Shown here: in pieces, positions 26,021 to 30,349 of the stretch
Numbering within the stretch: the stretch's first letter is position 1
Layout: every line of letters begins with the position of its first letter
From: Lacibacter luteus
GTDB taxonomy: Bacteria > Bacteroidota > Bacteroidia > Chitinophagales > Chitinophagaceae
DNA length: 64,000 nt
Assembly (NCBI RefSeq): GCF_004118265.1
Contig: NZ_SDHW01000004.1
Location: 310,001-374,000, forward strand
Direction of reading: 5' to 3'
The notes under the pieces: generated by a model
The model's input: only the letters and a program-made list of their open reading frames with translations
Told to the model about the DNA's origin: nothing
Databases searched by the model: none
Position numbers and translations under genes: made by a program

Positions 26021-26173
26021 ATTCAGAACTAATAAACGTTACAAAAACTCTCACCGGTTTTCTCCAGCGTTTATACTCAATTCGTCTGTTTGCAGTGCGT
26101 AACACTGCATCATTTGATCATTCTGTTGAACTGTTTTGCTTATCGCTCACAGCCAACAGCAAATAGCTTAGTT

Positions 26174-27190
26174 ATGGACATCAGAAAAGAACTCGAAAAA
26201 AGAATCCTCGTTATCGATGGCGCAATGGGCACCATGATCCAGCGGCATAAATTACAGGAAGCCGATTACCGTGGCGAACGTTTTAAAGACTGGCATTCCG
26301 ATGTAAAAGGCAATAACGATCTGTTGAGCATTACACAACCGCAGATCATTACCGGTATTCATAAACAATATTTAAATGCAGGTGCCGATATCATCGAAAC
26401 AAATACATTCAGCAGCACCAGTATAGCACAAGCCGATTATGAAATGCAATCGCTGGCGTATGAATTGAATGTTGCATCGGCACAATGTGCAAGAAAAGCG
26501 ATTGAAGAATACAATGCAGAAAATCCATCTACCCAAAGCACAAAGTTTGTTGCTGGTGCTATCGGGCCGTTGAATAAAACATTATCGCTTTCGCCCGATG
26601 TAAACAACCCTGGTTATCGTGCAGTTACGTTCGATGAAGTGGTAGCTGCTTATTACGAACAGATCAAAGGATTGGTTGATGGTGGTGTTGATGTGTTGTT
26701 GATCGAAACCATTTTCGATACGCTCAATGCAAAGGCTGCCATCTTCGCTGTGAAGAAATATTTTGCCGATCAGCAAAAGCCTGAGTTGCCGATCATGATC
26801 AGCGGAACCATTACCGATGCAAGTGGCCGTACCCTCAGCGGGCAAACACTCGAAGCTTTTTATATTTCGGTGATGCATGCCAAACCATTGAGCATTGGTT
26901 TAAACTGTGCATTGGGTGCACATGAAATGCGTCCGCATATTGAAGAATTATCACAAATTGCTTCCTGTTATGTATCGGCTTATCCCAACGCAGGTTTACC
27001 AAATGCTATGGGTGAGTACGATGAACGTCCGGAAGATACCGGTCATTATTTAGAAGAATGGGCAGAAGAAGGTTGGGTGAATATCGTTGGTGGATGTTGT
27101 GGCACCACACCTGATCATATTAAACATATTGCCGAGCATGTAAGAAAAATTCAGCCGAGAGAATTGCCTGTGGTAGAAGCGACTTTTTAA
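26174..27190 (+). CDS. metH: Methionine synthase, homocysteine-binding module (split MetH)
   Basis: Zinc-dependent module that activates homocysteine for methylation from methylcobalamin. ATG at 26174 gives [23 protein letters not shown] as in MetH; an upstream ATG at 26090 would add 28 unrelated residues. The TIM-barrel shows DGAMGTMIQ (about 16), ETNTFSST, and the three zinc cysteines, one in LNCALG (about 243) and two in [10 protein letters not shown] (about 306). Length 338 ends right after the module. The pterin, cobalamin and reactivation modules are encoded by the gene at 27671. Separate modules are known in this phylum, so the split itself is not a mutation. The two halves are separated here by a GxxExxY gene. 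Confidence 0.94.
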
Positions 27191-27192
27191 GG

Positions 27193-27232
27193 TTGAACCA
27201 CAAAGACACTAAAAACACGAAGTAGCACAAAG
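27193..27232. repeat. Left inverted repeat of the GxxExxY cassette
   Basis: Starts TTGAACCACAAAGACAC and ends GAAGTAGCACAAAG. Its complement is found at 27626-27665 with one change in the first 17 bases and a nine-base gap after that block. It begins two bases after the stop codon of the first metH gene. Confidence 0.7.
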
Positions 27233-27235
27233 CCT

Positions 27236-27625
27236 ATGTATAAATTACTGAGTGAGCAAGAAGAATTTCTTGCGAGTGAAATTGTTGATATCGCCATCAA
27301 GATTCACAAAGAACTTGGACCAGGTTTGTTAGAAAGTGTGTACGCCAAGTGTTTTTATTATGAATTGAACCAAAGAGAAATACCATTTCAAAAAGAAAAA
27401 GAGGTGCCGATCATTTATCAAGCATTAAAAATTGACGACGGCCTTCGATTAGATCTTTTAGTTGATAACTTGGTTATTGTGGAATTTAAAGCACAGGAAA
27501 ATTATCATCCTGTGTGGGAAGCTCAGATCTTAAGCTACCTGAAATTATCTCAGAAAAGATTAGGGTTTCTTCTCAACTTCCATGTGCCTCTAATGAAAGA
27601 AGGAATAAAAAGATTAATCTTATAA
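27236..27625 (+). CDS. GxxExxY family protein (PD-(D/E)XK nuclease-like)
   Basis: Small protein of 129 residues with the name-giving motif GLLESVY (about residues 29-35, in IHKELGPGLLESVYAKCF), then ELNQREIPFQKEKEVPI, RLDLLVDNLVIVEFKA and WEAQILSYLKLSQKRLGFLLNF. The D-x(n)-E-x-K pattern in LDLLVDNLVIVEFKA looks like a PD-(D/E)XK nuclease core; the family's function is unproven. The gene lies exactly between imperfect inverted repeats and between the two metH genes, which points to a small inserted cassette. It has no link to methionine synthesis. Confidence 0.88.
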   Translation: MYKLLSEQEEFLASEIVDIAIKIHKELGPGLLESVYAKCFYYELNQREIPFQKEKEVPIIYQALKIDDGLRLDLLVDNLVIVEFKAQENYHPVWEAQILSYLKLSQKRLGFLLNFHVPLMKEGIKRLIL

Positions 27626-27665
27626 ACTTAGTGCCACTTTGCGACTTCGTGTCTTGGTGGTTCAA
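27626..27665. repeat. Right inverted repeat of the GxxExxY cassette
   Basis: On the minus strand it reads TTGAACCACCAAGACACGAA and then GTCGCAAAGTGGCACTAAG. It overlaps the end of the GxxExxY stop region and ends five bases before the ATG of the second metH gene, so it now serves as that gene's leader. Confidence 0.7.
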
Positions 27666-27670
27666 AAAAC

Positions 27671-30349
27671 ATGAACAGTATTAAACCATACAGCCGCTTT
27701 TCAGGATTAGAACCTTTAGTCGTTCGTCCTGAAACAAACTTTTTGAATGTTGGTGAACGTACCAATGTTACCGGCTCAAAGAAATTTGCACGCCTCATCA
27801 AAGAAAACAAATACGAAGAGGCATTGAGTATTGCACGTCAGCAAGTGGAGAACGGTGCACAGGTGATTGATGTAAACATGGATGATGCCTTGCTCGATGG
27901 TGTGCAGGCCATGACCACCTTCATCAACCTCTTGCAAAGTGAACCCGATATTGCCAAAATTCCGGTGATGATCGACTCTTCGAAATTCGAGATCATTGAA
28001 GCAGGTTTGAAATGTGTGCAGGGTAAATGTATTGTGAACTCTATCTCCATGAAAGAAGGAGTTGACAAGTTTATTGAGCAGGCACGCATCTGTCGCATGT
28101 ATGGTGCGGCTGTTGTTGTAATGGCGTTTGATGAAGTAGGGCAAGCAGATACCAAACAACGTAAAGTAGAAATTTGTCACCGTGCTTATAAGATCTTAAC
28201 GGAGCAGGTTGGTTTCGATGCACAGGATATCATCTTCGACCCGAACATTTTTGCGTTGGCAACGGGTATGGAAGAACACAACAACTATGGTGTTGATTTT
28301 ATTGAAGCTACAAGAGAGATCAAACAACTGATGCCGCTCACTAAGATCAGTGGTGGTGTAAGTAATCTTTCTTTCTCTTTCCGTGGTAACGATCATGTGC
28401 GTGAAGCCATGCACAGTGTGTTCCTTTACTATGCCATTAAGGAAGGCATGGACATGGGTATTGTGAATGCCGGTCAGTTGGTGGTGTACGATGAAATTGA
28501 ACCGCAGTTAAGAGAGTTGTGTGAAGATGTAATTCTCAACCGTAACAACGATAACAACGAAGCCACCGATAAACTCATTGCATTTGCTGAAACAGTAAAA
28601 GCAAAAGGCAAAGCAGAAGTAAAAGATGAAGCTTGGCGCAACGCTTCCGTTGAAGAACGTTTGAAGCATGCATTGGTGAATGGTATTACCGAGTACATTG
28701 ATGTTGATACCGAAGAAGCAAGATTGCAATACAACCGTCCGTTGGAAGTAATTGAAGGACCGTTGATGGCAGGCATGAGTGTTGTAGGCGATCTGTTTGG
28801 TGCAGGTAAAATGTTTTTACCACAGGTGGTGAAGAGTGCACGTGTAATGAAGAAGAGTGTTGCCTGGTTAACTCCTTTTATCGAAGCAGAAAAACAGGAA
28901 GCAAGCAACGCACCAACTATTTTATTGGCCACCGTAAAAGGTGATGTGCATGATATTGGTAAAAACATTGTGGGTGTGGTGCTGGGTTGTAACGGTTACA
29001 ACATCATTGACCTTGGTGTAATGGTGCCGACTGATAAAATTTTAGATGTTGCTCAAAAAGAAAATGTAGACATCATTGGTTTGAGTGGATTGATCACGCC
29101 TTCGCTTGATGAAATGGTGCACGTGGCACACGAAATGAAACGCAGGGGAATGAAGCAACCATTGTTGATTGGTGGCGCTACTACTTCACGTATGCACACG
29201 GCAGTGAAAATTACTCCACAATATGATGATGGTGTGATTCATGTGTTGGATGCAAGTCGTAGTGTGACTGTTGCGGGCAGTTTGTTAAGCAAGGAGCAGA
29301 AACCTGCTTTCCTGCAAGGCATCAAAGGAGAATACGACAAGCTGCGTGATGATTTTAATAATAAGAAAGTTGTAAAACAATTCCTGTCGTTAGAAGATGC
29401 ACAAGCCAATAAAACAAAGATCGACTGGAAAAATTTCACAGCTGTCACTCCAACCTTCACCGGTGTAAAACAGTTCGATAATTACGATTTAAACGAGCTT
29501 AGAAATTATATCGACTGGAAACCATTCTTTATCGCATGGGAACTGCATGGCAACTTCCCTGCAATTTTAACGGATGCAGTTGTTGGTACTGAAGCAACAA
29601 AATTGTACAACGATGCGAATGCAATGCTTGATAAGATCATTGCAGAAAAATGGTTGACCGCAAAAGGAACAGTTGGTTTCTGGCCGGCGAACAGTGATGG
29701 GAAGGACAGTGTGGAAGTACGAAGTACGAATGACAAAGTACGATTGGAGTTTCTTCGTCAACAGATCAAGAAAGCAGAAGGCCAACCAAACATTTCCTTA
29801 GCTGATTTTATTCAACCGGCTAACGACTCACAACCATCGGCTACCGACTACCTCGGTGCTTTCTCCGTAACCATTCATGGCATTGAAGAACACATCAAAC
29901 GTTTTGAAGCAGCACATGACGATTACAGCAAGATTACGTTGCAGGCATTGGCCGATCGTTTTGCAGAAGCATTTGCTGAGTGTTTGCACGAACGTACACG
30001 TAAAGAGTTCTGGGGTTATGCAAAAGATGAAGTGTTGACGAATGAAGATCTCATCAAAGAACAATACATGGGTATTCGTCCGGCACCGGGTTATCCTGCT
30101 TGTCCCGATCATACAGAAAAATACAAACTGTTTAGTTTGTTAGGTGGCGAAGAAGCAACCGGTATTCATTTAACCGAATCGCTGGCGATGTTCCCTGCTT
30201 CATCTGTTTGTGGTTGGTACTTTGCACACCCTGACAGTAAATATTTTGGTGTAGGAAAGATCAGTAACGATCAGTTGGAAGATTATACCAAACGTAAAGG
30301 AATGAGTTTGGAAGAAGTGACGAGATGGCTAAGACCGATCTTAGAATGA
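27671..30349 (+). CDS. metH: Methionine synthase, pterin-, cobalamin- and AdoMet-binding modules (split MetH)
   Basis: Carries methyl from 5-methyltetrahydrofolate to cobalamin and includes the reactivation domain. Residues about 15-280 are the pterin-binding domain ([37 protein letters not shown]). About 330-420 is the cobalamin cap helix region, and 415-550 the Rossmann fold with the axial histidine motif DVHDIGKN (about 424-431) and [12 protein letters not shown]. About 570-892 is the AdoMet-binding activation domain ([15 protein letters not shown] at about 802). With the 338-residue gene at 26174 it makes a full-length MetH. It starts five bases after the right inverted repeat and ends in a strong terminator. 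Confidence 0.96.

Follow-up and report, generated by a model that had tools for sequence, protein, structure and literature searches.

A GxxExxY gene between inverted word arrays in the metH gap of Lacibacter luteus: a candidate two-part genomic replicator

Between the two metH genes of Lacibacter luteus lies a small GxxExxY gene that is enclosed by a pair of inverted repeats, here called arms. The locus raises the question of whether gene and arms form a mobile or selfish unit and, if so, which of them acts on the other. We studied it within a stretch of 64,000 nucleotides (contig NZ_SDHW01000004.1; hereafter the window) and compared it with the rest of the same genome (G000), with relatives represented by one genome per species, and with GxxExxY genes from other phyla. 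We propose, at even confidence, that the unit represents a single copy of a genomic replicator with two parts, a GxxExxY nuclease gene and an inverted arm pair.

An optional unit at the metH junction and at other sites

The 473-base arm-gene-arm unit occupies the whole gap between metH1 and metH2 (Table 1). Its left arm, TTGAACCAC..., begins 2 bases past the metH1 stop codon (27188-27190), and its right arm ends 5 bases 5' of the metH2 ATG, in agreement with the initial annotation. An inverted-repeat search paired 27193-27212 with 27646-27665 at 90% complementarity, and a gapped alignment lengthened the match to about 39-45 columns with a score of 20 to 21.5, matching the earlier description of imperfect repeats of about 40 bases. 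The true start of metH1 is, judging by the sequence, probably an ATG near 26174. By profile search, GxxExxY / PDDEXK_3 was the sole match in the unit, with no transposase of the DDE, HUH/Y1 or any other type, and a search for known RNA families at gathering thresholds in the window and five stretches of its own genome returned nothing except one tRNA.

Table 1. The arm-gene-arm unit and its neighbours (positions in the window).
Feature	Position	Strand	Description
N-terminal metH gene (metH1), upstream neighbour	26090..27190	+	ORF from first TTG; PF02574, metH profiles
Left arm	27193..27232	+	Four words CACAAAG / CACTAAA / CACGAAG / CACAAAG at 27199, 27207, 27216, 27226; linkers 1, 2, 3
GxxExxY gene	27236..27625	+	129 aa, ATG at 27236 to stop at 27625; predicted PD-(D/E)XK nuclease; TIGR04256 / PF13366 profiles
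Right arm	27627..27665	-	Four minus-strand words; linkers 1, 1, 3
C-terminal metH gene (metH2), downstream neighbour	27671..30349	+	PF00809, PF02607, PF02310, PF02965

The initial annotation had viewed the unit as a cassette inserted within metH and splitting it. This is ruled out, as metH consists of two genes also in family members without the cassette. metH2 was found in 54 of the 59 relatives. Thirty loci were returned, each from the same family, and 28 of them have metH1 as a separate upstream gene. Twenty-two of these 28 junctions lack GxxExxY, and in 20 of them 0-155 bases separate the two genes. In other parts of the order, metH may be a single gene, as several metH2 matches fall in open frames of 1,222-1,274 aa. 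The metH1-metH2 gaps of G008 (L059) and G020 (L069) measure 1,249 and 1,087 bases and hold other sequence without GxxExxY.

Rather than the same gene with diverged repeats in all relatives, comparison of the junction revealed an occupancy that varies by species, with the gene present in some congeners and a gap without it in others. Of the 14 congeneric genomes, four carry the orthologous gene (G000, G003, G011, and G012, the latter three encoding proteins 88-95% identical in amino acids to the window protein), three carry other GxxExxY lineages with other arms (G013, G001, and G007, at 60%, 48%, and 53% identity), one has a lone arm, and six have no such gene. The lone arm (G009) has the linker signature [1,1,3] and by eye is nearly the left arm of G013, and the gaps of G002, G004, G005, G006, and G010 measure 13-56 bases and contain no recognisable arm. 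Lone arms also occur at the metH junction of two genomes from other genera (G017 and G029).

Five further sites (S1, S2, S4, S5, and S6) were compared using joined host flanks as the query, and 40 of the matched places were read. Together with metH, these make six orthologous sites that hold gene, arms or nothing depending on the species. S1 carries the gene in 3 of 11 genomes (counting G000), two arms without the gene in 3, only the right arm in 1, and none of these in 4. At S2, the gene is present in 6 of 9 genomes (three protein lineages with at least two arm types), with gene-less arms, a lone arm, and neither in one genome each. S4 and S5 are both occupied by the gene in 7 of 10 genomes and empty in 3, the S4 genes belonging to one lineage in five cases and to another in two, and S6 has the gene in 2 of 5 genomes, gene-less arms in 2, and none in 1. 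Some gene copies are broken by internal stops. The arms-only sites were called from word arrays and pattern matches because they are weak as plain inverted repeats; those at S1, S2, and S6 did not stand out in this respect, and only S6 in G003 clearly beat the shuffles (15.0 versus 12.0). The gene-less arm unit at this last place (L347) is seemingly in tandem repeat. The earlier idea of a putatively mobile or selfish unit is supported in part: the unit is optional by species at metH and five other sites, and gene-less copies are dispersed in the genome. The interruption of metH has to be given up.

Gene-less arms at sites that hold the gene in other species could mean that the arm pair is the recognition site of a homing-type parasite, in which case the gene would be copied into the centre of cut empty pairs and something else would spread or keep the pairs. 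The position of the gene in the middle of the arm pair and the arms without gene at the orthologous sites S1, S2, and S6 agree with this, and some homing enzymes share the PD-(D/E)XK fold, which the modelled GxxExxY protein weakly resembles. However, the gene-less arms at these three sites mostly belong to a different word family from the gene-bearing arms of sister species and thus are not simple empty versions, and the type of arm goes with protein relatedness across unrelated sites (see below). We consider homing unlikely.

Arms as spaced word arrays and their relation to the GxxExxY protein

The initial annotation had advised searching the genome for the repeats and for further GxxExxY copies, and both dispersed arms and ten GxxExxY genes were found, each gene with its own arm wording. 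In eight of the ten, the arms upstream and downstream of the same gene match at 20-24.5, compared with 8-15 for cross pairs among the ten; the arms of L010 score 15, which equals the highest cross-pair score, and L018 has no arms.

For a general test, we used 114 different GxxExxY genes whose flanks were complete, with dinucleotide shuffles and neighbouring ORFs of at least 200 aa as controls; a partner-swap control was left out because arms are common to several elements. An own-up/own-down arm score of at least 18 was reached by 65 of the 114 genes, compared with 7 of 3420 shuffles and 4 of the 229 neighbouring ORFs, leaving 49 GxxExxY genes below 18. At a score of 15, the respective counts were 83 of 114, 66 of 3420, and 12 of 229. 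When 29 more Bacteroidota loci were included, 85 of 142 genes scored at least 18, and two further samples, taken mostly from arm-rich genomes with 250- and 300-base flanks and no control of their own, gave 19 of 20 and 18 of 20. Similar arms thus flank many GxxExxY genes in this genome and in other phyla, and the supposed link between such repeats and this gene family, which the initial annotation had suggested, holds beyond the metH locus.

Many arms consist of three to four seven-base words of the C-R-C-N-R-A-G type at set spacings, and other elements use different words, for example of the CAGATT or GGGAAGACGGAAAG types. Among 403 words from 108 arms of the genus, C1, C3, A6, and G7 are conserved at 99-100% and variation is mainly found at positions 2, 4, and 5, a figure that is biased by the fact that most of these arms were located by a pattern fixing C1, C3, A6, and G7. 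The four metH elements were found by their inverted repeats and are free of this bias; here, the core positions 1, 3, 5, 6, and 7 agree in 234 of 240 comparisons and positions 2 and 4 together with the linkers in 107 of 162. Applied to the 114 genes, the word parser returned 59 upstream and 57 downstream arrays in the expected orientation versus 17 and 14 in the unexpected one.

The two arms of an element match each other in their spacing. Words were parsed on both sides in 42 of the 114 genes, and the first two linker lengths agree between left and right in 31 of these 42 (permutation mean 11.0, maximum 19 in 20000 permutations). Excluding the common [1,1] class, agreement was seen in 12 of 23 (permutation mean 2.0, maximum 8), and the linker letters agree between left and right in 47 of 95 cases. 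A single arm has no more folding potential than its shuffles (z 0.42 and 0.08), and for two whole arm pairs this potential is strong (z -6.2 and -10.1). Selection for matched pairing between the arms was considered and rejected, as left-right agreement at positions 2 and 4 (0.71 and 0.41) is not above that of shuffled pairs (0.74 and 0.49); the higher agreement at position 5 (0.72 versus 0.56 shuffled, 6 of 1000 shuffles) fits a shared word family.

Arm similarity is linked with protein relatedness. For 73 elements with clear arms (score of at least 17, arms up to 60 bases), a subset of the 142, protein identity and arm similarity correlated with a Mantel r of 0.41, the maximum of 2000 permutations being 0.205, and for pairs below 60% protein identity r was 0.364 versus 0.226. 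On the protein tree, the state of the first linker (1 or not) requires 5 changes versus a shuffled mean of 8.6, with 2 of 300 shuffles as low, and the full linker signature requires 10 changes versus a shuffled mean of 10.8 (50 of 300). Only the coarse spacing signal of the first linker therefore tracks the protein tree; the full signature does not.

The window protein is a full member of its family, scoring 134.8 bits with TIGR04256 (cut-off 35) and 127.5 bits with PF13366 (cut-off 22), entries that, as displayed by the search tools, carry no function, arms or mobility. Across 60 GxxExxY sequences, G30, L31, E33, Y36, D73, E83, K85, Q97, and G110 are invariant and Y101 nearly so. We predict from the sequence and the model that GxxExxY is a PD-(D/E)XK nuclease, as the invariant D73, E83, K85, and Q97 lie on a fold that AlphaFold2 modelled with confidence (mean pLDDT 95); the conserved D, ExK, and QxxxY presumably form a RecB/Cas4-type nuclease site. 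The best Foldseek matches among solved structures were lambda exonuclease and SSO0001, which we take to be a Cas4, and these were weak (E 0.02-0.04, TM about 0.4-0.5, large rmsd), with no match to the model at E <= 0.001. A sequence search of the PDB with the window protein gave no match, PADLOC Cas4 profiles reached E values of about 0.008, and no PHROGs family was assigned. The modelled protein thus shares a weak fold likeness and the conserved D, ExK, and QxxxY with lambda exonuclease, SSO0001, and RecB-type nucleases, and differs from them as a stand-alone 129-aa gene between arms.

The metH-site gene is under strong purifying selection. In five of the six pairs among the four orthologues, dN/dS is 0.04-0.05 at a dS of 0.87-1.24, and the closest pair has a dN/dS of 0.15 at a dS of 0.23. 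Low dN/dS at high dS in four species argues for long retention of the gene and not for a recent jump. A mainly phage- or plasmid-borne gene was another candidate; the window protein matches 0 phage records and 7 of 72,556 plasmid records, which rules this out and places the gene mainly in chromosomes.

Dispersed gene-less arm pairs

A strict three-word pattern has 30 matches in the genome of the window and 0 when reversed. Gene-less arms are dispersed, often as close inverted pairs, and lie mostly in gene gaps, with some overlapping ORF ends. The 108 parsed arms of the genus include 25 close pairs (50 of the 108 arms), of which 23 are convergent, 2 divergent, and 0 same-strand. In an acidobacterial bin, 27 of 27 close neighbours among the 97 matches listed are convergent, and a Methanoperedens bin has 8 convergent, 6 divergent, and 1 same-strand neighbours among 53. 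The arm types of the window, [1,2,3] and [1,1,3], are the common dispersed ones in the genus. About 23-98 kb on contig C26 of the same genome (L194-L196, L243-L245), there is a stretch of mostly co-directional genes with a large share of the strict arm matches of the genome; ten scanned ORFs there include rhamnosidases, GH141, a GH2 protein, sugar transporters, and a RuBisCO-like protein.

Inverted ends and short gene-less derivatives would also be expected if the units were MITE-like remnants of a classical transposon that used a different transposase, with GxxExxY as cargo. The ends are slightly unlike, as such an origin would allow: among the 22 [1,x]-type pairs, one [1,1] end faces one [1,2] end in 14, which is also the arrangement of the window element, both ends are [1,1] in 6 and [1,2] in 0, and 2 pairs are built otherwise. 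Against this speak the genes found between arms, which are GxxExxY genes (our search started from that gene), and the target-site duplication at S5, which is 0-1 base long in all 7 occupied copies, given approximate borders. In sum, GxxExxY units have terminal inverted repeats and short gene-less derivatives in common with MITEs and classical IS elements, from which the window unit differs by lacking a transposase and S5 by showing no target-site duplication within these approximate borders. We regard a cargo role as highly improbable.

The dispersed arms occur together with the gene. In 296 Bacteroidota genomes, of which 152 carry a GxxExxY gene, arms were found in 100 of 152 gene-bearing versus 13 of 144 gene-less genomes, and at least 10 arms in 30 versus 0. 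Gene-bearing genomes account for 861 of the 880 arms, and after subtraction of two arms for each gene, 39 of 152 versus 13 of 144 genomes still have arms left. As many of the gene-less Bacteroidota genomes come from one family, relatedness inflates these association tests. In 117 genomes from the class of a Geobacteraceae bin, 97 of them with the gene, any arm was found in 78 of 97 gene-bearing versus 9 of 20 gene-less genomes and at least 5 arms in 55 versus 2, and the difference was not significant after discounting two arms per gene (54 of 97 versus 9 of 20). Arms thus track the gene over the Bacteroidota sample and less clearly over the second class. Arms are present in 28 of 30 non-Bacteroidota genomes that were chosen for carrying the gene, with a maximum of 341 in one genome.

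In 20 genomes, we judged by eye, from words and spacing, whether the dispersed arms match a resident gene. They match an examined resident in seven (G000, G003, G034, G201, G273, G312, and G471), partly in three (G241, G277, and G488), and no examined resident in ten, namely G022, G419, G435, and G437, where all residents were examined, and G082, G104, G225, G245, G327, and G445, where only some were. None of the three residents of G022 matches its 185 strict arms, and G439 has 47 strict arms and no GxxExxY match.

It is also conceivable that the arms are sites useful to the host, such as 3' ends, terminators or protein-binding sites, and that GxxExxY is a conserved host nuclease controlled by them. 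Some gene-less pairs recur, by their flanks, at the same place in sister species, where core positions agree in 173 of 180 cases versus 94 of 121 for variable positions, and this conservation would suit a host function, as would the low dN/dS of the metH-site gene. A further point in favour is the site C21:754450 (C21:754444-754558 and orthologues, L296-L301), where arms lie on both sides of a host terminator hairpin in G000, G009, and G003; in G002 and G006 the terminator has flanks of different wording, and in G001 and G010 it stands by itself. However, word families differ between species at one and the same site, many sites are empty in close relatives, a genome may have anything from 0 to 341 arms, and arm type tracks the protein. 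We rate a regulatory or structural role as quite unlikely.

The terminator site also counts against simple insertion, because arms are found on both of its sides. At S4, the left arm includes, in inverted form, a piece of host sequence that lies beyond the opposite end of the element, around the start of the downstream gene (18 bases exact in G006, L333; 13 in G013, L336), and these copies look like fold-back template switching. Both cases hint that fold-back copying at hairpins may have had a part in the origin of arms.

A two-part replicator and its relation to known systems

How could gene and arms work together? In the two-part replicator that we propose, the nuclease would recognise word arrays at the spacing characteristic of its element and cut at or near arm pairs, which would be able to fold as hairpins when single-stranded. 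Subsequent repair or copying would then carry the pair into further intergenic gaps, in most cases leaving the gene behind as a resident that would itself turn over slowly. Labour would thus be divided as in REPIN/RAYT, but by an unrelated enzyme at a different type of site. We judge a driving role of the nuclease to be likelier than any other reading, with about an even chance of being correct. Weighing against it are the ten of 20 genomes without an arm-resident match, G022 and G439 in particular, the GxxExxY genes with an arm score below 18, the arm-less L018, the behaviour of the full linker signature, the weaker association in the second class, and the terminator site at C21:754450.

In its way of life, the unit resembles REPIN/RAYT, in which the enzyme is the REP-associated tyrosine transposase (RAYT, TnpAREP). 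In the parts of PMC3116915, PMC8266576, and PMC8049555 available for comparison, both systems have intergenic inverted doublets that are dispersed in the genome, with lone remnants, and a largely chromosomal resident enzyme gene flanked by related repeats, with co-evolution of enzyme and repeat; extragenic inverted doublets are what the convergent pairs in gene gaps described above represent. According to the same parts, RAYT is an HUH/Y1 transposase whereas GxxExxY is predicted to be a PD-(D/E)XK protein, a REP is itself a palindrome whereas a GxxExxY arm consists of spaced 7-base words without a fold of its own, and several GxxExxY lineages per genome are unlike REPIN/RAYT. The unit is therefore functionally similar to REPIN/RAYT but not a member, as it shares neither the enzyme nor the single-repeat hairpin. 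The TAACTGA heptamer repeats of Beggiatoaceae are likewise intergenic, built on a 7-base word, and present in distant phyla including Bacteroidetes and Cyanobacteria, with no known mechanism; these, as far as the accessible text of PMC4679880 goes, are direct repeats of one word with no linked nuclease named, in contrast to the inverted GxxExxY arms.

Within the literature searched, which leaves out most subscription journals, we found no mention of PDDEXK_3 and no description of palindromic or dispersed repeats matching the arms (six arm sequences included), and in this sense the GxxExxY-plus-arms system is undescribed. The excerpt of PMC8934634 mentions GxxExxY in passing, the name also occurs in PMC12085832, and PF13366 appears in a single paper.

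More broadly, and with somewhat less than even confidence, we suggest that GxxExxY may serve as the enzyme in a hitherto undescribed class of replicators that reside in genomes across phyla. It would read DNA by a spacing code and be, now or formerly, the source of the dispersed palindromes of the CACAAAG/CACAGAG/CGCAAAG type found in many bacterial and perhaps in some archaeal genomes. In the proposed code, each of the two inverted arms has three to four short words, set apart by distances specific to the element. If true, this would provide a substrate and a role for a family lacking a known function and an origin for abundant dispersed repeats of which we found no description, and a way of life like that of REPIN/RAYT would have evolved anew around an unrelated enzyme. 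The system is a natural test bed for the joint change of an enzyme and its DNA words.

The 71 named public GxxExxY loci in our tree span 16 phyla, as judged by record titles and with many metagenome bins among them. Phyla are strongly intermixed on this quick tree of short proteins, yet not randomly, with 31 phylum changes versus a shuffled mean of 37.0 (minimum 33). In some genomes, two or three GxxExxY genes are clustered within a few kilobases (G385 C3 169508-172251; G147 C4; G253 C1). On viral contigs, two narrow patterns yielded 5 confirmed GxxExxY loci. Two viral-contig loci, L160 and L163, encode distant relatives with flanking inverted repeats that score 49 and 54.5, and their A/T-rich arms are of a different kind.
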